This document shows, one piece after another, positions 3,807-22,329 of a stretch of 22,329 nt of DNA. Under the pieces are notes generated by a model. The model ran no database searches. It was not told the origin of the DNA and worked only from the letters and a program-made list of their open reading frames with translations. Each line of letters begins with the position of its first letter. Positions within the stretch are counted from its first letter, which is position 1. The position numbers and the translations under genes are program-made. Source of the DNA: a virus; IMG/VR virus record IMGVR_UViG_3300028490_000031, positions 1 to 22,329 of that record; one strand, given 5' to 3'.

Positions 3807-5722
3807 TATTGTGGTCCTCCTTGATTAGTACCTGTTGGTATCTGTAGTTGTTGAGAGCTTGGCCCGTTCTGAGGGTTACCATTTGAACCACCCATTGCTC
3901 CGCCCATAATTGCTTGCATATTACCACCTGCCATTGCTAGTGAGGGGTCTAGTTGACCTTGACTAACCATGAGTGATGTTTGCTTAAATATGTCACTTAA
4001 TACATTTGAATACTTAGCTCCATAGTTTCTAAGACTTAATGATGATGCCATCATAAAACCAGCCGGGTTCATCTGTAGTAACGCTTGACCCATTGGACCA
4101 TTAACTACAGTCTCTAGCATCAGTTGGTCTTTCTCAGCCGTGTTGTCTTGTGCTATACTCTCTACCTTAACATCTACATCTGCATAAGACAGTGTTGATG
4201 AGGGGTCACCTAGTGGCGCAAGTGCAATAGCTCCTGTCTCTTTGTTGATAACGTAGTCACCACTACCTGGGTCTATAACTGGTTCCATTACTGGTTGAGT
4301 TACTAGTTGTCCCATTTCATCTACTTCTGGTTGACCTGTTTGCTGATTAATTACCGGCTCTTGTACAGGCTCATTAATCTTAAAGTATCTATCACCTACA
4401 AAGTGGTCAGTAGTTCTAATAACTTGCTCTGCTGATACATACTGCTTGGCTAGGTGAACTCCTTGTAGACCAATTCTTTTCATCATTATTTCAACTTTAC
4501 CAGTTATGTATGATAGCATACCAGCTGAGTGATTAGCTTGTATCTGAACCTTACGACCTGAGTCTGATGCGAATGCATTACCTAGGAAAGAGTCATTAAC
4601 CCCTAACACTAATTGAATACGTTGTAGAGCTTTATCAATAGCTGTATACTGATTAAGTATATCTCTTGACATATCCTCTAGTTTAATACCTGAAAGGTCC
4701 TCAACTTCTACAACAGCATTTACTCTGTTAAAGGCTTCTTTGAACTTATCTATGCTCTCAACTGCGCCCTCTTCTACAAATGCTTTTGATGTATTAATCA
4801 ATAGTTGTATTTGTATCAAGGCTTGGTTGATAGCTTTCTGACTCTCTACAACCTCTCTAAATGGTCCATAGAACTCATCAATATCTAGCTGGTCATTAAC
4901 CTTAACTGCTATGTAAGGGTTCTTAGCATCTTTAAACGTAATCTCTTTACGAGTTAAGATAATCTCATCATGCCATTGAACTGAGTAGTACTTACCATTT
5001 CTATCTCTAATTATAGAGTGTACTACGAGATACTTCTCATGTGCTTTGTAGATACCACTATAACCAAATGAATTCTCAGTATAGTTCTTATCTGCTTCAA
5101 CTCTATCAGTAAAGTTTCTACCTTCTGTTGCTTTATCAAGTTTAGTCTTACCATACAATTGTATGAAGTTGTCTTGACTAATCCATTTAAATCTATGGAA
5201 AAATCTAGCATCTGAATGGTCGTCTAGTTTAGACATAGGGTCAAGTGCACACTGATAAGATGGAGCATAGTTTATTTTAATATCATGTATATCTCTACCA
5301 TAATCATCTTGTGCACCTGTCTTAATTACATCCATGTAGGCTATCATCAAACCTGACGTTAGCCCATCAAGTATAAACTTACGCTTAACTGACTCAAAAT
5401 CATTGTTATCTAATGTATAACCTACATAGTCATTTAACGCTGTAGCTACATCAATAGCTTCATTGTTTCTAGACTTAATCTCTGGTCTATTCTGAACCTT
5501 GCCAAGGTAGCCCATCAAGGCACGAGTCATCATCAATACGATGTTGAACGTCTCTACAGGTTGCCCTCTACTGTTCAGAACAGCTATCTGCTCGTGAGTG
5601 TAGTGACGGTTGGTTAACATGTCCCTACATTCTTGAGCTTCCTTTTGGGAGTTCTCAAAAGTATCCATTGAATACTTAAGAGTCTCTTGAAGGTATCTAG
5701 GGTCGTTACTATATGCTTTCAT
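3806..5722 (-). CDS. Portal protein, P22-like family
   Basis: The portal forms the twelve-subunit ring at one capsid vertex through which the terminase pumps DNA. The 638-residue protein has the N-terminal pattern of P22-type portals: a helical start, then an NIVLMMTRALMGYLGK-like segment before PEIK at about residues 60-85, a helical region containing DVATALNDYVGYTLDNN, and an acidic LDPMSKLDDHSDARF segment near residue 160 corresponding to the family's wing region. An unusual Pro/Glu/Gln-rich insertion lies at about 450-495, and the last 40 residues are Gly/Gln/Asn-rich and probably disordered. The start has AAGGAG seven bases upstream. Unlike many phages, the portal gene is not next to the terminase or capsid genes but between two ejection-type proteins. 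Family assignment is from sequence pattern recalled, without a search. Confidence 0.85.
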   Translation of the reverse strand: MKAYSNDPRYLQETLKYSMDTFENSQKEAQECRDMLTNRHYTHEQIAVLNSRGQPVETFNIVLMMTRALMGYLGKVQNRPEIKSRNNEAIDVATALNDYVGYTLDNNDFESVKRKFILDGLTSGLMIAYMDVIKTGAQDDYGRDIHDIKINYAPSYQCALDPMSKLDDHSDARFFHRFKWISQDNFIQLYGKTKLDKATEGRNFTDRVEADKNYTENSFGYSGIYKAHEKYLVVHSIIRDRNGKYYSVQWHDEIILTRKEITFKDAKNPYIAVKVNDQLDIDEFYGPFREVVESQKAINQALIQIQLLINTSKAFVEEGAVESIDKFKEAFNRVNAVVEVEDLSGIKLEDMSRDILNQYTAIDKALQRIQLVLGVNDSFLGNAFASDSGRKVQIQANHSAGMLSYITGKVEIMMKRIGLQGVHLAKQYVSAEQVIRTTDHFVGDRYFKINEPVQEPVINQQTGQPEVDEMGQLVTQPVMEPVIDPGSGDYVINKETGAIALAPLGDPSSTLSYADVDVKVESIAQDNTAEKDQLMLETVVNGPMGQALLQMNPAGFMMASSLSLRNYGAKYSNVLSDIFKQTSLMVSQGQLDPSLAMAGGNMQAIMGGAMGGSNGNPQNGPSSQQLQIPTGTNQGGPQ

Positions 5723-5731
5723 TAATTCTCC

Positions 5732-6835
5732 TTACCATTTGTCTATGGAGACGCCCGTGCCACCATCGCCACTAAACATATTTGACTTACCAAGCATAGC
5801 TCCTGCAAATGAACCCCAACCTGCTGAGTCTTTACCAGCGGCATTAGCTTGTTGTTGGTAAGCCGCGCCTACTCCGTCATTCTGAGCTTGCCCAGAGTTA
5901 AATGATAACCATGCATTTTGTCTTCTCTGTGATTGACCTGCTGCTAAGTTACCCGTAGCTCCATACATCGCATTGTCTACTTGAGCATTAAACATAGACG
6001 CTTTATTCTCTGCACCTGCATTAGCTAAGCTAACACCAGTTTGTGTTTGAGCATTGAACTGAGACATAGCTGATTGTCTTTGCGCATTGCCTACATTGAC
6101 TCCAGTAGCCATTTGGCTATTAGCTAATTCACCTTGTAACATGCCGCCTGCGAACCCGGCTTGAAGTTGCTCACTTCTACCTCTGATGTTCTCACCGATA
6201 CCATACATACTATTTAATGTATTAGTGCCTTGTGCTTGTAGTTGATTAGCTTGCCCATAGGAGTCTACATCAATCTTACGTGATTGCTTAGCAAAGTCCA
6301 TGCTCATTCTATCAGCCATTTCTACATTGATACCACTTCTATTTATACCAGCTGTAGCAAGTCTTTGGTCCATGTCTTTCATGATGGTATCTCTATCTAA
6401 AGACAGTTGCTCTCTACCACTTGCAGATAATCTAGCTTGAGATACTTGCATAATACCATCAGCTACGTTATCCATGATAGGACCATAGCGTCTAGAGAAA
6501 GTATCCATTGCTTCTGTGTTATTACCAATGGCTTTTTGGAACTTCTCTATGAAAGAGTCCATGTTAGCTAGTACTGCTTTAGCATCTTCTGCTTTACCTT
6601 GGTAGGCAGTAGCATTAGTTACGCCTGCATGAGTATTCATTTTCTTGTACTCGCCTAGGGCCGCGTCGAAGAATCTGTCTGACCATTCAGCTTCCCTCTC
6701 TAAGTTACCTTTTGAGTACTCATACTTTTCTTTTTCAAAAGCTAAGTTTTTTGCATTTGCTTTTGCTTGTTTATTTGAAGATGATATTGAACCAACTGCT
6801 CCAATAACTGCTCCACCTATTGCGACTATACCCAT
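5732..6835 (-). CDS. Internal virion (ejection-type) protein, 367 residues
   Basis: The protein starts with a Gly/Ala/Ile-rich hydrophobic segment (residues 1-20, MGIVAIGGAVIGAVGSISSS). A charged coiled-coil stretch follows, then a long region rich in Gln, Asn, Ala and Gly (about 180-340) with repeated short NAQ/NAG-type motifs. A hydrophobic N-terminal helix followed by Gln/Ala-rich helices is typical of the first DNA-ejection protein of podoviruses (T7 gp14 or P22 gp7 type), which enters the host envelope. The ATG directly follows the stop of the preceding gene with no gap and has AAGGAGG upstream. It lies immediately before the portal gene. The role is inferred from composition and neighbours; a scaffold-like or tail-lumen role is the main alternative. 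Confidence 0.68.
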   Translation of the reverse strand: MGIVAIGGAVIGAVGSISSSNKQAKANAKNLAFEKEKYEYSKGNLEREAEWSDRFFDAALGEYKKMNTHAGVTNATAYQGKAEDAKAVLANMDSFIEKFQKAIGNNTEAMDTFSRRYGPIMDNVADGIMQVSQARLSASGREQLSLDRDTIMKDMDQRLATAGINRSGINVEMADRMSMDFAKQSRKIDVDSYGQANQLQAQGTNTLNSMYGIGENIRGRSEQLQAGFAGGMLQGELANSQMATGVNVGNAQRQSAMSQFNAQTQTGVSLANAGAENKASMFNAQVDNAMYGATGNLAAGQSQRRQNAWLSFNSGQAQNDGVGAAYQQQANAAGKDSAGWGSFAGAMLGKSNMFSGDGGTGVSIDKW

Positions 6836-7246
6836 TTAATCCTCCTTATCTATTTGTGCCATTCTTTGCAAACATTCTTCTTCAGTTTCCAAAGTTAGCG
6901 TCTTTATTATATTCATAAAAGTACAATCTGTTACACACATACCAAACTTCTGAGAGCCTGGTCCAGTTTCAAACACCATAGGTGCATGTATTAATGCATA
7001 CTCACCAGCTGGGTTATCTGTAACTAGCATTGACCCACTAGCTAACACATTAACATTCCACTCTTTATGTACTTCTCCTACAATCACTTGACCAGCTTGA
7101 ACTTGGATAGTTCTAGCCATCATGCCGCTGTTAGGAAGCATAGTATTAATTGTAGGTAAATCATCTTTACCAAATGTGTTAAGCTCTTTTTTCATAAACT
7201 CTATCATCTGGTCCATTGGCTTTAAGCCTATTAAGCCTTTCATCAT
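6836..7246 (-). CDS. Small cupin-like protein
   Basis: This is a 136-residue protein. Residues 45-115 alternate beta-strand-like segments with glycines and prolines in a pattern that suggests a single cupin (jelly-roll) domain: a VQAGQVIVGEVH strand pair, WNVNVLASGSMLV, then HAPMVFETGPGSQKFGMCVTDCTFMNI. Only some of the usual metal-binding His/Glu residues seem present, so enzymatic activity is not assured. The start overlaps the stop of the 914-residue tail gene by four bases (ATGA), implying translational coupling; a second ATG follows immediately. The next gene starts without a gap. The strict structural-operon position suggests a virion component or assembly factor. The fold call rests on pattern only. 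Confidence 0.55.
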   Translation of the reverse strand: MMKGLIGLKPMDQMIEFMKKELNTFGKDDLPTINTMLPNSGMMARTIQVQAGQVIVGEVHKEWNVNVLASGSMLVTDNPAGEYALIHAPMVFETGPGSQKFGMCVTDCTFMNIIKTLTLETEEECLQRMAQIDKED

Positions 7247-9987
7247 TTTGTAGTCTTTCTTGGTGTAATACTATACTCAATACTAGTGATTAGACCAGCT
7301 CCTATAGCTTCAAACGAAATTGATTTACCTTTGTTCTTACCTTTTGGTATATGTAAATTCAATTCTTTATCAAGTGCGAGTTCTATCTCTTCCCTTATAA
7401 CCTCTCTATCATCAATACTGACAATAAACAAGCCTACAAAGTACCCTGACATTCTAGCTCTATCCCACTCTTTAACAAGTGCTGGAGCACCCTCACTGAT
7501 GTTACCTGATTTATAGTTGAGTATACGCTCACCTTTACCAAGTGTATCAAATAGAACCTCGCCCTTAGAATGATGTAGCTTACCTTGTACATATCCTAGG
7601 CCTTTTACGTTGTCTGCTGACAAGAAACTGAACGCTGGTTTAGCGTCAATGTCATACTTCATCATAACCCTAGCAGGGTCTTTTGAGCCTTCCATGAAGT
7701 TAGTACACAAAGCATAGTAGCTTCTGCTAGTAGTCATACTATCTATTACTTCCCATTTACGAGAACCTAATAGATTGTAGCTTAGCTCTACAACTTGTCT
7801 ACCATCTGTGAAGCATAGGCCATCTTCACTAAAGAACAGAACACCATTTGATACAGCTTGAATACTTCTTGTATCTTGTGTTCCTTTACTATTAGTAATT
7901 GTAGACATACTAAAACTAGTTGGCAGGTCACCAGATAGAAGTTTAATTCTACCTTTCATGAATATAACCAAACCAAACACAGCTGAGGCTATGCCCGTTA
8001 TTTTTCTATCTACTACTACAAATGATTTGACTCTGTCCCAGTGGTCTGCATTACCAGGTTGTGACCAATAGATAGTATCTCCCACATAACCAAAGAGTCT
8101 ACCTTTATGCTCTGTCAAGCCTTCTAGACCAGCTGGTGGCGCATCTACAAAGTTATACTTTCCTATTTGACCAACTGATATAGTTACATCATCACGCTTA
8201 TCTATGTATTCATTTGTAGGGTCTACATTCTCTACCATGAAATATTCTGACAGGTTACCTCCTGCTCTATATAATCTAAGCTCCTTTGTATGAACTACCT
8301 TACTCAAGTCTACTTTGATGTGACCTTTGTATACACTAACTGGGTTGCTCTCAGTAGTCATAATGCTGCCTGCTGAGCCACCAGCCGCTAACTGGGCTAC
8401 ATTGTAGTTATATGTACCAGTTAAGGTTCTTATATCAAACACAGCTGGTAGACTAGGCGAATGAGCTTGTATAACATTCCACTTGTGTAAAGTAGCTAGT
8501 GTTCCTGCTCTATGTGATATAGCTCTAACCAATGTGTTATGGAACGTGAAACCTTTAAAGTCTGCATTGGTTGGTATATCTGCACCTTTGATATCTGACT
8601 CTATAACTTGGTTAGATAGTCTACTGTATGTAACTATTCCTTTATGGATAGGGAATACTTGAAAGTCGCTATCCACAAATACAGAACCAGATGAACCGCC
8701 TAACCCTCTAATCTTCTCTACAGATACTTTTGAATTACCAGTTAACTCTACAGTTAATGCAGGTAGTTGTATCTTACGAATACTAGCTGAGTGTTTATCA
8801 TTTAGCAGTGCATAGATTGTATCACCTTTAATTGTATAAACACTATCCTCTGCTTTAGCATAAGGAAACTTAAGCATATTTCTAATGGTTAATCTAGTGC
8901 CATCAAAGATAACCACTCTACCTTCTGATGGTGAGAACATATACAGCTTGCTATCCCATTCGATGGTAGTACCTTTGAAGAACTCATCACTAATAACTAA
9001 AGTAGTAGTTAATATATTCGTGCCATCAGCCAACCAGATACTTACTTCTGAACCTATGCGAACTAAGATGTACAGCTTATCGGCATAACTAAAGCTTGAA
9101 GCTATAGCTGTGATATCATCTGGAGGACTTGCATGAGCTACAGAGATACCTAATGTAGCCTTTGCCCATGTGTCTTTATCAGTTAATTGGTATGAGGCTG
9201 GCACATCTATTCTAGCCTCTACCGTAGTTAGCTTAACTGAATAAGGAACTGAATAGGCTTTACCTAATACAAGAGATAATCTGTGTGAAGAGAAGTTAGC
9301 TATCTTTGTAGAGGATACAAAGTTATAAGCTGTGTGTATCTCAACTAGTCCGTCTACAAAGTTACCACTACCTACAAATACAAACTTATCTGTATAGCCA
9401 CCGTGCTCATCTAGTGCTTCTCTATATACTTTAACAGTTGAAGGCAGAGTAAATGTAACAGTAGCTTTACCTGTGTTATCTCTTATATCGCCTATATAAA
9501 CAGAGTCTTTATCATCTACAAGTCTATATCTGATTTGAGCCGCATTGATAAGCCCGCCAGTTGATTGAGTAGTAAGAACTGCCTTAGCTCCAGCTATATC
9601 ATCAATGGTTAATACATGAGCAGAGATAGTTCCACCTGTCTTAGGTACGCCTACGTTGTCCCATGTGAACTCGCCATTAGCATCAAGAGCACCATCTGTA
9701 ATCTGACAAGCAGGTCCTCCATCACTATAAGCTAACTTACCTTGAAACTCTGCATAGCTTCTCCATGTATCAGATGATACAATCTTGAAATCTTGAGGGT
9801 CTGATTGTGGTACTTCAAACTCATAGAAACATCGTTTAGCTTCTCCCACATCAACTGGTAGCATAGCTGACTTCATGCCAAACTTCTCTATGTCTGCATC
9901 AAGTATAACAGTAGATTGAGTGGGGTCTAGGTAGTGTTTATCCACACCTATAACTACACCTGAGTCAAATCTATTAATAACTGGCAT
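7243..9987 (-). CDS. Large tail protein, probable tail nozzle/tubular protein (914 residues)
   Basis: This is a long, almost entirely beta-type protein. Between about residues 290 and 470 it contains repeated short motifs such as YADKLYILVRIG, WDSKLYMFSP and DTIYALLND, which look like blades of a beta-propeller. At about residues 640-720 comes the segment GRLFGYVGDTIYWSQPGNADHW followed by MKGRIKLLSGD. That combination recurs in tail tubular, stabilisation or nozzle proteins of short-tailed phages (P22 gp10 or T7 gp12 role). It would sit below the head-tail adaptor and close the tail. The start at 9987 has GAAAGGAGAAACC upstream and overlaps the end of the lipoprotein gene by 14 bases. The tail role is likely; the precise homologue cannot be settled by eye. 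Confidence 0.7.
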   Translation of the reverse strand: MPVINRFDSGVVIGVDKHYLDPTQSTVILDADIEKFGMKSAMLPVDVGEAKRCFYEFEVPQSDPQDFKIVSSDTWRSYAEFQGKLAYSDGGPACQITDGALDANGEFTWDNVGVPKTGGTISAHVLTIDDIAGAKAVLTTQSTGGLINAAQIRYRLVDDKDSVYIGDIRDNTGKATVTFTLPSTVKVYREALDEHGGYTDKFVFVGSGNFVDGLVEIHTAYNFVSSTKIANFSSHRLSLVLGKAYSVPYSVKLTTVEARIDVPASYQLTDKDTWAKATLGISVAHASPPDDITAIASSFSYADKLYILVRIGSEVSIWLADGTNILTTTLVISDEFFKGTTIEWDSKLYMFSPSEGRVVIFDGTRLTIRNMLKFPYAKAEDSVYTIKGDTIYALLNDKHSASIRKIQLPALTVELTGNSKVSVEKIRGLGGSSGSVFVDSDFQVFPIHKGIVTYSRLSNQVIESDIKGADIPTNADFKGFTFHNTLVRAISHRAGTLATLHKWNVIQAHSPSLPAVFDIRTLTGTYNYNVAQLAAGGSAGSIMTTESNPVSVYKGHIKVDLSKVVHTKELRLYRAGGNLSEYFMVENVDPTNEYIDKRDDVTISVGQIGKYNFVDAPPAGLEGLTEHKGRLFGYVGDTIYWSQPGNADHWDRVKSFVVVDRKITGIASAVFGLVIFMKGRIKLLSGDLPTSFSMSTITNSKGTQDTRSIQAVSNGVLFFSEDGLCFTDGRQVVELSYNLLGSRKWEVIDSMTTSRSYYALCTNFMEGSKDPARVMMKYDIDAKPAFSFLSADNVKGLGYVQGKLHHSKGEVLFDTLGKGERILNYKSGNISEGAPALVKEWDRARMSGYFVGLFIVSIDDREVIREEIELALDKELNLHIPKGKNKGKSISFEAIGAGLITSIEYSITPRKTTK

Positions 9988-16199: not shown

Positions 16200-17027
16200 T
16201 TAATTTTTAATATAGTAGCCATTTAGTCGGCTACCACTTTTAATGTAATTTCTTACACTAGTTCTAGAAGTATTTAAGAATTCTGCAGCCTTAGTGACTG
16301 ACTTAAACTCTTTTAATACTTCCCCCTCTAGATTTAATAAACGTACACTAGCCTTTCTACCACTCTTATAAGGAGCTATTCCGCCTGTATGAAGCTCTCT
16401 TGACCACTGAAAGTTGCCCGAAGATTTCTTGTTGAAACCTACAGAAACCCCAGTCTCATCAAGAGCTTGGAGCTTATCTCTATAAGTAGCTATATAGTCT
16501 CCCTCTAGGCTGTATTGATGTACAGCACCTAAGGGAGATACCCAAGGTTTAACCTCATCATTATGTGACCATATAAATTCTCCACTACGTGCCTCTCTAC
16601 ACGAGGCTGCAGTAATAGCAGATTTAGTAGAGTGGTTAGCTAATGCAGCTATTCTACAGGTTTTATAGCTCTCTATAAACTTACCATCTAAGGTAAATTT
16701 ATTAACTGGTCTATCCCAATTCCCATTGATAACTATTGCTAGCTTCTCTTGGTCTCTACGCTTGGCTCTGTTATCTTCAAAGGATAATACTTGCATATTA
16801 TCAAAGTGGTAAGCTAAAAGGTCTAAGTCTGATATTCTATCTATAGTAGGTACCAGGTTTTTATCACCTGTTTCTAAATAGATAGAGAACAACTCATCAA
16901 ATGGTTGCTCATCTAGCCAGAGTATAAACTCCTCCTTAGAGAAGCTTAACTCTTGACCATGTATATTACGTTGTCTACCGGTTATCCCATAAAACAGACG
17001 TTTTATCATATCAGACTTAGTCCGCAT
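16200..17027 (-). CDS. Homing-type HNH endonuclease with three NUMOD1-like repeats
   Basis: The N-terminal part contains VPTIDRISD (59-67) followed by AYHFDNMQVLSFEDNRAKRR (72-91). This is the signature of phage HNH nucleases (DR, then the DN and EN asparagines), although the first His is not obvious. Three C-terminal repeats, at about 107-153, 168-208 and 227-275, each start with a strand pair of the type VxxFxLDGKFIxxY and end in a helix and a GxFxWS or GYYI segment. This is the NUMOD1 DNA-binding pattern of homing endonucleases. The ATG overlaps the capsid stop by one base (TAATG). The protein is likely a free-standing selfish endonuclease that cuts related phage genomes lacking it; it is not expected to be part of the virion. 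Confidence 0.8.
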   Translation of the reverse strand: MRTKSDMIKRLFYGITGRQRNIHGQELSFSKEEFILWLDEQPFDELFSIYLETGDKNLVPTIDRISDLDLLAYHFDNMQVLSFEDNRAKRRDQEKLAIVINGNWDRPVNKFTLDGKFIESYKTCRIAALANHSTKSAITAASCREARSGEFIWSHNDEVKPWVSPLGAVHQYSLEGDYIATYRDKLQALDETGVSVGFNKKSSGNFQWSRELHTGGIAPYKSGRKASVRLLNLEGEVLKEFKSVTKAAEFLNTSRTSVRNYIKSGSRLNGYYIKN

Positions 17028-18193
17028 TATGGATTAACTCCGAAAAAAGTATCAACAGCTACAATTCCGTATTGGAACCCAGCAACTTTAGCTTCAGTAT
17101 AATCTGTGTTCTCTGCTTTCAAGATTGTTGATTGAACGTTTGTCCACATCTCAATTGCTGAACCACTTGTAATATCATAATCATCAGATGATTTGTATTT
17201 GTAATCAGGCTGTCTACCGAATGCTTGTTGTAATGCACCTGCACCAAGAACAAGTGCTCTAGAAGCAACTTTCTTACCTTTTGTATCAAAACCAGTCTCA
17301 CCACTAAAGATACCATCTTCATTGATTTGTCTAAGTCCTGCAACTTCAACAGCTGTCTTACCTAGTGCTCTAGATACTGACTCACCTTGGAAATCATCAC
17401 CTTCAACAATAATGAATGAACGGAATGTACCCATGTAACCACGGATTAATCTGTTATCATTACCTCTAACATCACCTTGTGAAAGGATAGCTTGAAGTTT
17501 AGTATCAAGTGCCATGTCTTCAGCTTGTTTAGCATCAATTACAAGTAAGTACTTTCTCATTCCACCTGCGAATTCAAATGGATCAAGTCTACGTCTTTTC
17601 CCACCTTCAGTATAACCTTTAGATGTTTTGATGATAGTTTCAAGTTTAACTAAGAAATCATAACCGAATGTATCAGTTGCAGTCAATGCACCAATAGTTG
17701 CTCTACCATTAGGTCTAACAATATGAGTAAGTTTCTCGTTGTTCAATCTACCTTGTGCAGCATCAAATAGCCATTGGTCAGATTGTCTTACATACCAGTC
17801 AGCTAGTAAACCTCTTGAATTCTCATGTTGAGATAGTGGTTGATTACCGATATCAATAGCATCAAACTCATCACCATTATCAAGACCATGTCTAATACGA
17901 CGTACTCTGATTTTGTCTGAGAATTGTTTCTTCTGCTCTTCGTTACCACGTAAACGTTCTTTATCTAGCTTTGCAGCTCCAGTTGCGTTACCACCGAATT
18001 GAAATACGACCTCGTGTCCCATTCCCTTTGATGCGTCTGTTGTTACGAATACAATTGCGTCTTTAGATGCACCCTTAAATCCTGCCCACCATGATGTAGC
18101 GGCTTTTTGAACTAGCCCCTCCAACATCCATTGACGTCTCTTTAAGATTGAACCGTAAGTCACAACTGATGTTTGGTTAGCTTGTGCTCCCAT
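17027..18193 (-). CDS. Major capsid protein (N4 gp56/DUF4043-like)
   Basis: The 388-residue protein shows the pattern of the N4 gp56/DUF4043 capsid family: GHEVVFQFGGNATGAA (58-73), then KERLRGNEEQKKQFSDKIRVRRIRHG (78-103), and RGLLADWYVRQSDQWLFDAAQG (about 128-149). These correspond to the strand and helices of an HK97-type fold. Immediately upstream lies an acidic scaffold-like gene, the standard partner. AAAGGG lies seven bases before the start. A homing endonuclease gene and a small head protein follow. The placement and the recognised family make the identification secure; the exact family name is recalled from pattern without a search. Confidence 0.87.
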   Translation of the reverse strand: MGAQANQTSVVTYGSILKRRQWMLEGLVQKAATSWWAGFKGASKDAIVFVTTDASKGMGHEVVFQFGGNATGAAKLDKERLRGNEEQKKQFSDKIRVRRIRHGLDNGDEFDAIDIGNQPLSQHENSRGLLADWYVRQSDQWLFDAAQGRLNNEKLTHIVRPNGRATIGALTATDTFGYDFLVKLETIIKTSKGYTEGGKRRRLDPFEFAGGMRKYLLVIDAKQAEDMALDTKLQAILSQGDVRGNDNRLIRGYMGTFRSFIIVEGDDFQGESVSRALGKTAVEVAGLRQINEDGIFSGETGFDTKGKKVASRALVLGAGALQQAFGRQPDYKYKSSDDYDITSGSAIEMWTNVQSTILKAENTDYTEAKVAGFQYGIVAVDTFFGVNP

Positions 18194-18211: not shown

Positions 18212-18943
18212 TTAGAATATAGCATCAGCATAATTTTGTGCTAATGCTTCATTGGACCCATCATCAGATGGAGCCGTTTGACCTCCAACGTCACCTAGAT
18301 TTGGCTGGTCTAGGGTTTCTACGTTGTGAGTCTCTGTAGGGCTGTACATAATCGTAGCAGCCTGCCCGAGGAAGTCTTGTGGAGCTATCTTACCTTGTGC
18401 GAATTCATTAAGAAGTCGTGGAGGTAAATCTAACTCTAACATTTCAAGAGTAATCTGTGTTGTAGGGTTGTCTACATTAAACTGTGCAATTTCACCTTCA
18501 ACTGTTCTCTGTCCTGCTTCGTCAGCAGCCTGTTGCGATGCTGTATTGAACGCCTCATCATATGGATTGGCTCTAGCTGCTGCAAGTGTTTGCTTGATGT
18601 ATTCATCAGGGTCTGAGTATTTTAAGCTCTCATCTACTGCTGGTACGTGTTGCACAGTTGGTATAATTTCTTTTACCTTCTGTAATTCAAGCTCGTTCTT
18701 GTCTGCTCTAGCTTTCTCCCTACTCGTGGCTGCTTGTGACCCTCTACGACGTTTCTCGTTATCCAGCAGCGCCAACTGCATAGGGTCAAGGTCGTCGCCT
18801 TTAATGTCATAAGAACCGCTTTCGTTTCTGACTAAGTGTTCTGTAAAGAATGCTTTAGCGTCAAATGCTGTAGGGCCATCAATTGAGTGGTCCGTAGCTG
18901 TGACTCGTGAAGCTTCTTCTTGTGCTGTTTTTTCGTATTCCAT
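18212..18943 (-). CDS. Scaffold protein
   Basis: The 243-residue protein is acidic and polar, rich in Asp, Glu, Gln, Ala and Asn, with a central probable helix (about 78-100, NEKRRRG through ELELQKVKEI) and an acidic C-terminus. It has no recognisable enzyme motif. Acidic helical proteins encoded directly before the major capsid gene are typically internal scaffolds that guide shell assembly and then leave. The ATG has AAAGGA seven bases upstream and is the first gene of the late operon. The mRNA leader holds a large hairpin (18979-19038). The gap to the capsid gene is 18 bases. No protease is encoded in the window, so scaffold removal probably does not involve a nearby phage protease. Confidence 0.78.
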   Translation of the reverse strand: MEYEKTAQEEASRVTATDHSIDGPTAFDAKAFFTEHLVRNESGSYDIKGDDLDPMQLALLDNEKRRRGSQAATSREKARADKNELELQKVKEIIPTVQHVPAVDESLKYSDPDEYIKQTLAAARANPYDEAFNTASQQAADEAGQRTVEGEIAQFNVDNPTTQITLEMLELDLPPRLLNEFAQGKIAPQDFLGQAATIMYSPTETHNVETLDQPNLGDVGGQTAPSDDGSNEALAQNYADAIF

Positions 18944-18978
18944 GTTAAATTCCTTTGTATGGAGGGTTTTTAAGCATT

Positions 18979-19038
18979 AACTGCTTAGGGTAGGCGGCTT
19001 GACAAACAGGGAAGAGTTACCGCCTACCTTAAGCAGTT
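18979..19038. repeat. Large inverted repeat (19-bp arms, 22-base loop) in the late-operon leader
   Basis: The arms 18979-18997 (AACTGCTTAGGGTAGGCGG) and 19020-19038 are complementary over 19 positions with one imperfect pair (G-T on the plus reading, A-C on the minus reading). The loop is 18998-19019. A transcript starting at the minus-strand promoter near 19075 would contain it about 30 nt from its 5' end and 35 nt before the scaffold start. No T-tract follows on either strand, so it is not a standard terminator. It may act as an mRNA stabiliser or RNase III site, or as a protein- or terminase-binding site. Confidence 0.85.
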
Positions 19039-19045
19039 TATTAAA

Positions 19046-19074: not shown

Positions 19075-19083
19075 ATTATAACA
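19075..19083 (-). promoter_or_regulatory. Late-operon promoter (extended -10, minus strand)
   Basis: On the minus strand the sequence reads TGTTATAAT, a perfect TATAAT with the TGn extension. No good -35 lies 16-18 bases upstream (GGGACT at best). Transcription would start near 19068 and run leftward through the hairpin into the scaffold gene. The bases after the box (ATGATATA) resemble those after the plus-strand box. Confidence 0.6.
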
Positions 19084-19130
19084 TAATTAATATTAGGAGT
19101 CCCTGAATTATCTCTATATAATGATAGATA

Positions 19131-19139
19131 TGATATAAT
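19131..19139 (+). promoter_or_regulatory. Terminase-operon promoter (extended -10, plus strand)
   Basis: The sequence reads TGATATAAT, a perfect extended -10 box, about 32 bases before the small terminase start. No recognisable -35 is present, and a second TATAAT sits 17 bases further upstream (19117-19122). The box and the following bases (TATAATAGATATA, then AT and AAGA) match the promoter candidate at 22240 at 19 of 21 positions. Confidence 0.62.
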
Positions 19140-19170
19140 AGATATAAATCAAGATACAAAGGTATACGAT

Positions 19171-19671
19171 ATGACCAAAGAAGAGCGAGAGCTAAAAGCA
19201 AAAGGCTTGTTAGCATTAGGCGGAACTCCTAAAGAGGTAGCAGAGACCTCTGGAGTAGCTTACCAGAAAGTACTATCCATAAAGAAGTCTATGATAAAAG
19301 AGAAGAGCAATGCTCAGATAGCAGAGGCTAGAGCCATATCTCCTGAGGTACTAGACATCGTTATAGAGAAAGCCAAAACAGAAGCACCTACAAAAGTAGT
19401 TAGAGAGCTAGAAGCCGTACAAGAAGGCTTGACGGGACTACAAGTACTAGACACAGAATTCCACACTACATTCTCACTTATATTAGGTAAGGCTGAGGAG
19501 TTTCTAGCCCGTGATGATTTAAAACCTAGCGAATGGGTATCTATTACAAACGCACTCAGTGGTGCATATAACAACATATTCAATAATTCAGGCGTTAATG
19601 TTCATGTAGACCAGAGCACCAATATCAATAGCAATAAGCTGAGTATGTTTAAAAATTCAATGAGGGGCTGA
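19171..19671 (+). CDS. Terminase small subunit
   Basis: The small subunit recognises the viral DNA and hands it to the large subunit. The 166-residue protein carries an N-terminal helix-turn-helix-like segment at about residues 14-38 (LALGGTPKEVAETSGVAYQKVLSIKK). A charged helical region follows (50-85), then a helical oligomerisation-like region, and a polar tail with GVNVHVDQSTNINSN. It lies two bases before the large subunit gene, the standard arrangement. The ATG has AAAGG nine bases upstream and a promoter candidate just before that. Sequence similarity among small terminases is low, so the call rests mainly on the helix-turn-helix and its neighbour. Confidence 0.78.
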   Translation: MTKEERELKAKGLLALGGTPKEVAETSGVAYQKVLSIKKSMIKEKSNAQIAEARAISPEVLDIVIEKAKTEAPTKVVRELEAVQEGLTGLQVLDTEFHTTFSLILGKAEEFLARDDLKPSEWVSITNALSGAYNNIFNNSGVNVHVDQSTNINSNKLSMFKNSMRG

Positions 19672-19673
19672 GT

Positions 19674-21290
19674 ATGACTAAGAAAAAAGATTATTGGTAC
19701 CTAAATATTAATAGAGAGCAGTTCGATGAGATATATAGAGGTACTACAGTATTAAAAGATAAGGTATTATTTGAGAAGCCTCCTGTATCAGATGAAGACA
19801 TGATACTAAACTATCTACCGTCTAAGCTGTGGAGACTGAACAACCTATATACAATTAGGGATAAGTTCGGTACTCCTATCGGATTTAATCTACATCGTGC
19901 GCAGCATATAGTTTATGCTGAGTCACTACGCCATGCTAGGCTAATAGTTCTTAAGTCGAGACAGCAAGGTATAAGTACACTGTGGCTCATTAGCTACTTT
20001 GATGATGCCGTCTTTATAGATAATAGTAACGTTGGTCTAATGGCACAAGATGCAGATGCTGCTACCGACCTATTAGAACGTGTTACTTACGCATGGGAGG
20101 ATATGGACGAAGCTATTAAAAGCTTCCTAGGAGTAATTAGAATAGTAAATAACTCAAAGGTTACTACGTTTAGCAATGGTTCAAAGATATATGTGCGTAC
20201 TTCTTTCCGTTCTGGTACATTGACACGACTACATATATCTGAGTTAGGTAAGATATCCAATAAGACACCTGAAAGAGCTAAAGAGACCAACTCAGGTACT
20301 CTACAAGCTATTAAGGCTGGTAACACAGTTATAATTGAGTCTACTGCTGAGGGGCGCGACAACCTGTTTGCACAGAAGTGGAGAACCGCTGAGACACATA
20401 TAGGCCCTCGCTCAGAGATGCACTTCAAAGACGTCTTCCTGTCATGGGTTGATGATACTGACTGTACACTTACTGTACCTGTTAGAGCTAAGGAGGAAGA
20501 TATAAGCTATGTTGAACTAGTTGAGCGAGATTTAAACATAGTGTTGACTGATGAGCAGAAGTGGTGGTGCTACGCAAAGAGGGAAGAACTAGGTGACGAT
20601 TTTGATAAAGAATATCCCTACAATCCTGAGTCTGCGTTCTCACAAGCACGTGATGGTGCCTACTACGGTAAACTACTGAAAGAGCTACGCGATGAAGGCC
20701 GTATACGCGAGGGCATATTTGAACCTGAGTTAAAAGTTGTGGTCTCATTCGACCTGGGTATTAACGATACGTTCGAGATGCTGTTCTGGCAAGATGATGT
20801 AGGCGCGTCGGGCCGTCGACAAGTTCGACTCATCGACCACTACCACAATACAGGCGAGTCGCTAGCCCACTACGTTGCTGTACTGCGAGACAGAAACTAC
20901 AGATATGAGAAGTTTGTGCTACCTCATGATGCTAAGAAGCGTGAGCTAGGGTCAGCTAAATCTATATCAGGACAACTAAAAGACCTGGGAATGACCAAGC
21001 AGAAGATATTGCCCCGCGATGATATCCTACCTGGTATCCAAGCAGTTAGAGAAATGATGCCATTGTTATGGATTGACCCAGTTAAGTGTTCGTATGTGGT
21101 GGAGGCTTTTGAGAACTACACTAAAGAATGGGACTCTAACCGCGGACAGTGGAAGAATGCTCCCAGGCACGACGAGTGGTCTAACCCTATGGACGCTACC
21201 CGTTACTACGCTATGTTTAAGCTAAAGGGTTTTAAACCTAAGAAGAAAACCAAGGCAGTAACTAATGTTGTTGATGGTATGGCTTTATAA
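19674..21290 (+). CDS. Terminase large subunit (packaging ATPase and nuclease)
   Basis: This is the motor that pumps DNA into the head and cuts it. In the 538 residues, the ATPase part shows a Walker A-like KSRQQGIST (94-102), a Walker B-like LTRLHISE (183-190, Glu190 as the catalytic carboxylate) and a coupling motif STAEG (223-227). The nuclease part shows SFDLGIND (358-365, Asp360), LPHDA (416-420, Asp419) and MDATRYY (506-512, Asp507), the RNase H-like acidic triad. All key residues look present, so the gene appears intact. The start follows GAGGGG, two bases after the small subunit stop. An endonuclease gene follows 14 bases downstream. Confidence 0.93.
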   Translation: MTKKKDYWYLNINREQFDEIYRGTTVLKDKVLFEKPPVSDEDMILNYLPSKLWRLNNLYTIRDKFGTPIGFNLHRAQHIVYAESLRHARLIVLKSRQQGISTLWLISYFDDAVFIDNSNVGLMAQDADAATDLLERVTYAWEDMDEAIKSFLGVIRIVNNSKVTTFSNGSKIYVRTSFRSGTLTRLHISELGKISNKTPERAKETNSGTLQAIKAGNTVIIESTAEGRDNLFAQKWRTAETHIGPRSEMHFKDVFLSWVDDTDCTLTVPVRAKEEDISYVELVERDLNIVLTDEQKWWCYAKREELGDDFDKEYPYNPESAFSQARDGAYYGKLLKELRDEGRIREGIFEPELKVVVSFDLGINDTFEMLFWQDDVGASGRRQVRLIDHYHNTGESLAHYVAVLRDRNYRYEKFVLPHDAKKRELGSAKSISGQLKDLGMTKQKILPRDDILPGIQAVREMMPLLWIDPVKCSYVVEAFENYTKEWDSNRGQWKNAPRHDEWSNPMDATRYYAMFKLKGFKPKKKTKAVTNVVDGMAL

Positions 21291-21304: not shown

Positions 21305-21946
21305 ATGTGGGCAATGATAAAAAAGCTAGATAAAAGAGAAATGAAGAGAGGTGAGCGTACTTGTATGTCTCAGTTCTACCTATATGAGTGCAGTTGTGGA
21401 GAGACCAAGGAAACTACGGGGGCAGACATACGTAGTGGTAAGAGCAAGATGTGCAGAGCGTGCAGTAGCAAGGTTAATAACACACAAAGATTAGAAATGA
21501 GTGATACAGGTCTCTACACATCGTTCAGAGCTATGAAGAGCCGCGCTGACTCTACGGAGGGTCACTACAAAGATATAGGTATGTGTTCAGAGTGGAGGGA
21601 CTTTGACACGTTTAGAAAGTGGGCCTTGAAGCATGGCTGGGAAGAGGGGCTAACCATAGATAGGCGAGACAATCTAGGTGATTATGAGCCTGATAACTGT
21701 AGGTGGTTAACCAGAGGTGATAATGCTACTAGGGCTAACTATGCAGCACCTAAGGGTAAAATACCATACATCTGTGTATGTGAAGATAACTACAAACCAA
21801 AGAATGGTCCTATTAAATACAGGGTTAGGATTAAAGGGCATAAGGTAAGTGGTAAGTTTGATACTCCTAAAGAAGCTGCGATTGCTTATAACAATTATGT
21901 GATTAAACATAAGCTTGCCGACCGACCGCTTAACGAGATTTGGTAG
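21305..21946 (+). CDS. HNH homing-type endonuclease with zinc ribbon and AP2-like domain
   Basis: The 213-residue protein has an N-terminal Cys pattern C29-x-C31 and C50-x2-C53 that suggests a zinc ribbon. The HNH region runs from LYTSFRAMKSRA (70-81) through GLTIDRRDN (115-123) to YEPDNCRWLTRGDNATR (127-143), a common signature of phage HNH enzymes. A C-terminal part (about 165-213, YRVRIKGHKVSGKFDTPKEAAIAYN) resembles the AP2 DNA-binding domain often fused to these nucleases. The start has AAAGGAAG six bases upstream and the gene follows the large terminase gene directly. It is most likely a selfish endonuclease. Some HNH proteins next to terminases take part in packaging, so that role cannot be excluded. 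Confidence 0.83.
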   Translation: MWAMIKKLDKREMKRGERTCMSQFYLYECSCGETKETTGADIRSGKSKMCRACSSKVNNTQRLEMSDTGLYTSFRAMKSRADSTEGHYKDIGMCSEWRDFDTFRKWALKHGWEEGLTIDRRDNLGDYEPDNCRWLTRGDNATRANYAAPKGKIPYICVCEDNYKPKNGPIKYRVRIKGHKVSGKFDTPKEAAIAYNNYVIKHKLADRPLNEIW

Positions 21947-22044: not shown

Positions 22045-22057
22045 TAATAGATATAAT
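22045..22057 (+). promoter_or_regulatory. Partial copy of the phage promoter motif
   Basis: TAATAGATATAA (22045-22056) is identical to 12 bases of the terminase promoter (19136-19147). The position corresponding to the TATAAT box is degraded here, but another TATAAT starts at 22052. This is either a weak promoter or a remnant copy. Confidence 0.3.
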
Positions 22058-22120
22058 TTATAAAGTAGGATTGGACCCTTGACCCTTCGTGGCATATATC
22101 AAATAGATAGATTAAGAAAT

Positions 22121-22156
22121 ATTTAAGATAGATTTAATCAAGATTTAAGATAGATT
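22121..22156. repeat. Two direct repeats of a 14-base AT-rich motif, 22 bases apart
   Basis: ATTTAAGATAGATT occurs exactly at 22121-22134 and 22143-22156. The 22-base period is close to two helical turns, which would place bound proteins on the same face of the DNA. Related TAGATTAAGA copies lie at 22108-22117, 22221-22230 and 22251-22260. The arrangement resembles iterons of an origin or a regulator-binding array. Confidence 0.6.
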
Positions 22157-22224
22157 ATGCTATTCGCGCACGTGTTTCTATTAATATATAGATGAGATAT
22201 GATATCAATCTATTTAATATTAGA

Positions 22225-22260
22225 TTAAGATTAATGTGGTATAATAGATATAGATTAAGA
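22225..22260 (+). promoter_or_regulatory. Promoter with extended -10, first copy of a 24-base direct repeat
   Basis: TGGTATAAT at 22237-22245 is a perfect extended -10 box. The 24 bases 22225-22248 recur exactly at 22306-22329. The bases from 22240 to 22260 match the terminase promoter (19134-19154) at 19 of 21 positions. It points right, toward genes outside the window. Confidence 0.6.
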
Positions 22261-22305: not shown

Positions 22306-22329
22306 TTAAGATTAATGTGGTATAATAGA
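22306..22329 (+). promoter_or_regulatory. Second copy of the 24-base promoter repeat, cut by the window edge
   Basis: It is identical to 22225-22248 and includes the extended -10 TGGTATAAT (22318-22326). The two copies are 81 bases apart. What follows the -10 box is not visible beyond AGA. Confidence 0.55.

Follow-up and report, generated by a model that had tools for sequence, protein, structure and literature searches.

Gene organization around the terminase genes

The window analysed here is the whole IMG/VR record IMGVR_UViG_3300028490_000031 (22,329 bases), a fragment corresponding to approximately half of a phage genome. The structural genes are directed leftward, while the genes of the small (terS) and large (terL) terminase subunits run rightward from position 19171 and are followed by an HNH gene (Table 1). 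The same gene order is found in Pseudoalteromonas phage PH1, where a gap of about 740 bases separates it from a long rightward series of small and replication genes. Thus, the right edge of the window most likely precedes the early genes. The right-edge sequence (AAGATTANTGTGNTATAATAG) gave no match and the early half of the phage was not recovered.

By searching with TerL and the head protein, we found six IMG/VR contigs that belong to the genus-level group of the window phage (L004, L160, L005, L163, L162 and L003) and whose head proteins are 78-97% identical to that of the window. In all six, the region between terS (plus strand) and the gene at the scaffold position (minus strand) carries a divergent pair of promoters. 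Farther relatives include G007, G008, L225 (TerL 37%), PH1, KF-1, Amaethon, VPMS1 and two Manatee Spring genomes. The closest cultured relatives, as judged by TerL and the major capsid protein (MCP), infect Pseudoalteromonas, Vibrio, Edwardsiella and Dickeya, and the promoter motif described below is absent from those phages.

Table 1. Genes and promoter elements of the window, in order of position.
Feature	Position	Strand	Remarks
Internal virion protein	7243-9987	leftward	with structural genes
Major head protein	17027-18193	-	phrog_334, 1.6e-52
First gene of leftward structural operon (scaffold position)	18212-18943	-	phrog_24492, PHROGs function unknown
Late (scaffold/capsid operon) promoter	19075-19083	-	TGT, TATAAT (-10 at 19080-19075), then ATGATATA
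TerS/TerL promoter	19131-19154	+	TGa, TATAAT (19134-19139), block AGATATAAATCAAGA; upstream TTAAG boxes decayed
Small terminase subunit (terS)	19171-19671	+	phrog_18995, 6.4e-08
Large terminase subunit (terL)	19674-21290	+	phrog_2, 2.1e-25
HNH endonuclease gene	21305-21946		
Partial copy of the motif	22045-22056	+	CTAATAGATATA, without upstream box
Array of four TTAAG/TTAAT boxes	22112-22155	+	11-bp period; no good -10 downstream
Two box copies	22214-22230	+	TTAATATTAGATTAAGA, 11 bp apart, the second 15 nt before the E1 -10; HP1043/CosR-type site
Right-edge promoter E1	22237-22260	+	TGG, TATAAT, AGATATAGATTAAGA
Right-edge promoter E2	22306-22329	+	TGG, TATAAT; TTAAGA box 15 nt ahead of the -10; truncated at the window end

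Promoter sites in the window

According to the original prediction, the promoter in front of terS and a promoter at the right edge share a motif which is conserved past the -10 box. This similarity is real, as from TATAAT onward the terS promoter (TATAATAGATATAAATCAAGA, 19134-19154) and E1 (TATAATAGATATAGATTAAGA, 22240-22260) are identical at 19 of 21 bases. When TGn is included, 21 of 24 bases agree, in comparison to 14 of the 25 bases upstream and 5 of the 20 bases past the block. The motif also exceeds chance: with up to 3 mismatches allowed it has two matches in the window at 0.02 expected, and none of 100 shuffles reached two. The remaining copies that had been reported were confirmed as well, namely the partial one near 22045, the one at 22318, which reads TGGTATAATAGA up to the edge, and the late promoter of the minus strand with one extra base (TATAATATGATATA). 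None of the four window sites was listed by a scan for sigma-70 -35/-10 promoters.

The exact 21-mer was tried as a marker and rejected, with a chance-like result of 18 IMG/VR hits that by eye reduce to about nine distinct sequences, one being present six times. TGn precedes TATAAT in two of these nine sequences and the box pair in none, as seen in the printed 30-nt upstream flanks, and many of the hits look like protein-coding DNA. The 16-mer TGNTATAATAGATATA was likewise uninformative, giving mostly one match per contig among the matches listed in IMG/VR.

TTAAG direct repeats precede an extended -10

The TerS/TerL promoter has an orthologous site in each of the six contigs. We aligned on the -10 the sites from seven relatives (the window and the six contigs) together with E1 and E2, which gave a set of 15 or 16 sites. 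The -10 is TATAAT at all 15 sites except both sites of L003, with TGn in 14/15 and TATGn in 12/15. The hexamer TTAAGA (at most one mismatch) is found in 12 of 15 sites, in comparison to a simulated mean of 0.8-1.4. Its position is also fixed: in 11 of the 16 sites a TTAA starts 15/16 nt before the -10, in 10 it starts 26/27 nt before it, and 8 sites have both. Under the null these three counts never exceeded 4, 4 and 2 (order-1 resampling) or 7, 6 and 3 (rotation), with 5000 runs of either kind. The consensus promoter consists of TTAA(G) direct repeats 11 bp apart, followed by the extended -10 TATGnTATAAT, on both strands of the divergent region, and the -35 is mostly absent; TTGACA 17 nt before the -10 occurs only in the late promoter of L004 among the 15 sites. 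The boxes of the divergent partner lie at 47/48 and 58/59 nt. The pairs of TTAAG boxes before E1 and before the orthologous promoters of the relatives are the main conserved element, which the original prediction had missed, and the part of the promoter most likely to be bound by a protein lies upstream of the -10.

The quality of the boxes differs between sites. Strict pairs are present at the minus-strand sites of L003, L160, L162 and L163, and at 22122/22133 in the window. The right-edge stretch as a whole has TTAAG/TTAAT boxes at 22112, 22123, 22134, 22145, 22214, 22225, 22255 and 22306, and near boxes are good at both E1 and E2. At the 19134 and 19080 sites of the window two half-sites 11 bp apart were not found. 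The boxes of the late promoter are weak in the window and good in L160, L162, L005 and L003. No TTAA lies at 15/16 nt in either divergent promoter of the window, in either promoter of L004 or in the plus-strand promoter of L003, the minus-strand promoter of L004 and the plus-strand one of L003 having CTAAGA there. Since the TerS and late promoters of the window and both L004 promoters keep TGnTATAAT and have poor boxes, these particular sites may not need a regulator bound to the boxes.

A palindrome (TATTATGnTATAATA), whose centre lies between TG and the -10, was weighed as a possible operator and rejected. It is seen in several relatives but broken in the window and in L004, and its symmetry is largely a consequence of TATG combined with TATAAT.

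The block downstream of the -10

The bases past the -10 box had been proposed to be bound by a phage factor or to act in the transcript start. Their conservation in this genus is indeed beyond chance. AGATATA begins 0-2 nt after the -10 in 6 of 15 sites (the plus-strand sites of the window, L004 and L163, the minus-strand sites of L004 and L005, and E1), in comparison to a mean of 0.05-0.08 when the same intergenic DNA was simulated with models of order 1 to 3, and in each model 0 of 4000 runs reached 6; these 15 sites are not independent events because they are partly orthologous. The plus-strand sites, the minus-strand sites and E1 are mutually non-orthologous.

It could be argued that the block (AGATATAnATnAAGA) is directly recognized by a phage factor, or serves as the recognition element at the start site, and its presence on both strands, in L163 too, speaks for this. 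However, AGATATA is missing from the plus-strand site of L005, from every site of L003, L160 and L162, and from all 118 non-redundant promoters of the class from other phages (among the matches listed; 131 before removal of near-duplicates), so a dedicated phage factor binding the block is unlikely. Moreover, its offset from the -10 varies (0 or 2 nt, and 1 nt for the near-match at the late promoter of the window), which suits a start-site sequence better than a rigid protein site, and the AAGA downstream of E1 is part of another TTAAG box (22255). We consider this explanation very improbable. Around the start site the 118 promoters are rich in A/T: [AG]TATA occurs there in 33 of them, and in 6 within the following 12 bases. 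The AGATATA block, which is genus-specific and covers the probable start site from the discriminator into the first bases of the transcript, is best read as a putative inherited start-site sequence and not a separate protein site.

The same promoters in other phages

The pattern TTAA-N7-TTAAG-N5/6-TRTGnTATAAT is found in at least 120 stretches of IMG/VR with at least 156 sites, and many contigs contain several. All six isolate-derived records among the matches listed are presumed to be C. jejuni phages, namely NCTC12673, PC14, Los1, CP81, CPX and CP30A; two of the six (L255 and L202) match C. jejuni phages at 100% on the DNA level.

Phage NCTC12673 is T4-like, and its gene content is other than that of the window phage. 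Its whole genome contains 26 sites at exactly the pair spacing (with a relaxed -10), in comparison to a control mean of 0.6 for each other spacing (largest 13). The gap between TTAAG and TATAAT is 10 nt in 7 cases and 11 nt in 15, the upstream copy lies at 21 (7) or 22 (15), and any other gap occurs at most 4 times. G follows TTAA in 25/32 first and 26/32 second (near) half-sites, in a genome of 26% GC. A Shine-Dalgarno sequence and an ATG lie downstream of 19 of the 26 sites. The promoters of this phage are annotated (GU296433) as 'extended -10 region'; several of those so annotated contain the box pair, and many have, like the promoters studied here, two TTAAG boxes at equal spacing. NCTC12673 has no RNA polymerase of its own, and two A/T-rich promoter motifs appear to be behind most of its transcription; the text of that report makes no mention of CosR (PMC6024767).

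These counts bear on another explanation, in which the host is AT-rich and the sites are ordinary extended -10 promoters; periodic TTAA tracts would then only aid melting or bending, without a dedicated regulator. In C. jejuni, promoters generally have TGxTATAAT and, in about 89% of cases, a periodic A/T pattern in place of the -35 (PMC3656092), and the TerS and late promoters of the window could function by TATGnTATAAT alone. However, melting or bending needs no G, while a G follows TTAA in most near half-sites of NCTC12673, and TTAAG recurs at a single spacing (11 bp) and a single distance from the -10 (15/16). AT-rich control phages, moreover, contained no sites: the relaxed pattern was absent from T4, the Pelagibacter phage HTVC008M and phage K (50 kb each), and from PH1. 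This explanation is unlikely, although of the alternatives weighed here it is the one we take most seriously.

The strict pattern was found in only two of 16 named or related records, NCTC12673 (6 sites) and the L225 contig (3 sites). Helicobacter phage KHP30 had no sites, and CP220 had none of the strict form in its whole genome and 14 relaxed ones in 50 kb, a count inflated by 5 that lie inside repeat arrays. The gammaproteobacterial PmrA/BasR box, YTTAAK-N5-YTTAAK, has the same half-site and spacing; however, none of 200 Pseudomonadota genomes contained the full promoter pattern. In the L225 contig terL, the phrog_24492 gene and the head protein gene are all directed leftward, unlike in the window, and strict sites lie at 6552-6584, in front of the gene preceding terL, and at 3953-3985, in front of a stretch ending in the pair of phrog_24492 and head protein genes. 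In G008 a site of the same geometry (2934) is located between terL and the gene at the scaffold position. This type of promoter therefore stays associated with packaging and capsid genes even where the orientation has changed.

Phased repeats close to their own gene are a common target of HTH-ring TerS proteins, and the boxes of the window adjoin terS and follow terL, so the repeats could be a TerS-binding packaging site (pac/cos) located near promoters by accident. On the other hand, the boxes keep a constant distance to the -10 on either strand, and the same boxes precede many other NCTC12673 genes. We regard this as hardly credible. Middle promoters of T4 have a MotA box with a GCTT core near -30; by eye, no such core was seen near -30 in the 75 nt upstream of the 16 sites, TTAAG being there instead. 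Both a MotA-like and a TerS-bound repeat were dropped, as the same boxes are found across NCTC12673.

Candidate binding protein and host

Promoters with a similar arrangement are known from Campylobacterota. The H. pylori regulator HP1043/HsrA binds TTTAAG-N5-TTTAAG directly upstream of the -10, with no -35 and with an extended TG in some promoters, and a distal second site also occurs, as at rpoD (PMC5253667). The phage sites have the same 11-bp spacing of direct repeats, a near box directly before the -10 in place of a -35, and the extended TG, as in promoters of the HP1043/HsrA-CosR type. The known sites, however, serve host genes, while here they are found in phages, before packaging, structural and right-hand genes and in divergent pairs. 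The Campylobacter homologue of HP1043 is CosR, which in C. jejuni is an essential regulator of the OmpR/PhoB family and has been compared with HP1043 (PMC3139631); its homologues are widespread in epsilonproteobacteria (PMC10936212). Its cmeABC site contains TTAACCAAAATTAAGA with TATAAT behind it in the 40-bp DNA studied, and in this it resembles the phage sites; in contrast to them, the TTAA copies are 10 bp apart and CosR acts as a repressor (PMC10936212). Both this site and the 21-bp consensus derived from three C. jejuni CosR sites (tttaAanAaAAaTtAtgaTTt; PMC3139631) are looser than the HP1043 motif. Promoters of streptococcal CiaR also contain NTTAAG-N5-TTTAAG ten nt before TATAAT (PMC3091779), so that both box and distance fit the phage sites, although CiaR is a two-component regulator of Firmicutes without a known link to these phages. 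Since the same box serves CiaR, the motif alone cannot name the protein.

We also considered a regulator encoded by the phages themselves, of a family other than OmpR, which would bind the TTAAG repeats as an activator or repressor and so order gene expression. The boxes do precede right-hand, packaging and structural genes, and the four-box array lies before the presumed early region. On the other hand, one box common to unrelated phages fits a shared host factor better than several phage proteins, and we consider such a regulator improbable. As for the OmpR family, its DNA-binding domain (PF00486, Trans_reg_C) was found in none of 44 motif-bearing phage records, which were 43 of about 80 distinct records among the matches listed (counted by hand, one of them NCTC12673-like) and the complete NCTC12673, taken by accession. 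Of 15 further records one contained it, a bacterial genome. The absence of this domain from the 44 records points to a host factor, and the simplest reading of these sequences is that such a factor binds the boxes.

We thus propose, with a probability of roughly two in three, that these extended -10/TTAAG promoters are served by the host RNA polymerase together with a CosR/HP1043-like host regulator, in a host belonging to Campylobacterota. Host polymerase with the housekeeping sigma factor would read the strong extended -10, TATGnTATAAT, mostly without a -35, and an OmpR-family regulator of the HP1043/HsrA-CosR type would occupy the two TTAAG half-sites, of which the near one lies 15/16 nt before the -10. 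Placed on one face of the DNA, the regulator could contact the polymerase. In this proposal the binding of a CosR/HP1043 homologue to the boxes would be activating. Given the CosR-type anatomy of its promoters, the phage probably infects a campylobacterote. Searches for close relatives of individual genes did not return any: the best match of the HNH gene was 28%, in Polaribacter phages, TerL matched 17 plasmid records, none of which reached 60% identity, and the MCP search of bacterial genomes gave one gammaproteobacterial bin at 42% identity.

The original prediction can be revised accordingly. One type of promoter does stand before packaging, structural and right-hand genes, but a phage-specific nature is not supported, as its architecture is that of the housekeeping/HP1043-CosR promoters of Campylobacterota and is common to unrelated Campylobacter phages. 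A single switch for packaging and right-hand genes remains plausible; it would act through a host regulator and not through a phage factor.

Possible consequences for phage and host

It is possible, and we put this forward only tentatively, that unrelated Campylobacterota phages have converged on the essential orphan regulator CosR/HP1043 as a general activator, and that replicating phage DNA also titrates this regulator from host genes. Titration would follow from the number of boxes in the NCTC12673 genome, some 26-39. After infection with this phage cmeABC rises two-fold (PMC6024767), and cmeABC is an operon repressed by CosR (PMC4943160); to speculate, its rise might be a symptom of CosR titration. 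Expression of katA also rises on NCTC12673 infection, which was related to Fur in that report (PMC6024767). As the regulator is essential, host cells could not shed it to escape. If a host regulator does serve these promoters as proposed, the phages exploit one that their host cannot do without, and the virus seems to borrow the switch of its host. The box would also be a sequence marker tying unassigned environmental phages to Campylobacterota hosts by promoter anatomy alone, and the role of the periodic signal that replaces the -35 in these bacteria would become testable on compact phage promoters. Neither a link between phage promoters and CosR/HP1043 nor CosR titration is stated in the titles and abstract openings of the papers found, and in the text seen of one report CosR is named only as a possible factor in oxidative stress during phage infection (PMC8540345).

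Further observations at the locus

In L162 (5724-5740, terS in plus orientation) TATAAT is followed by ATGATATG, and terS starts about where transcription should begin; the terS message of this phage is likely leaderless, as far as the sequence indicates. The 5' leader of the leftward transcript, in contrast, can form a long stem of about 20 bp or more in the window (18976-19041, minus strand), L004 (5426-5548), L005 (4170-4285) and L003 (9257-9386). The stem sequences differ among these four relatives, the loop keeps CUUCCC, and the z-scores range from -4.9 to -8.3. The window stem had no Rfam match, and by eye no stem was seen in the short regions of L160, L162 and L163. This element is possibly involved in processing or stability. 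In NCTC12673 (GU296433), an inverted repeat spans the -10 and start site near 77752, 89363, 97140 and 123034 (minus strand), e.g., GATACCGTTACGGTATC, which might reflect a second regulator or a hairpin at the 5' end.

Repeat arrays occupy the gap after terL in the PH1 locus (L153, 19033-19774, rich in GGACGTCT) and in L003 (11712-11784, 9-bp units of CTATCTTCA). Together with the TTAAG boxes of the window they perhaps mark an origin or end region. Besides the HNH gene of the window, extra small genes are located at 6270-6944 in L004 and at 8795-9256 (minus strand) in L003, and thus such genes occupy three different places around terS and terL in close relatives, as mobile endonuclease genes do. 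The terL frame of L004 (6937-8442) is broken near codon 100, which is either an assembly error or real.
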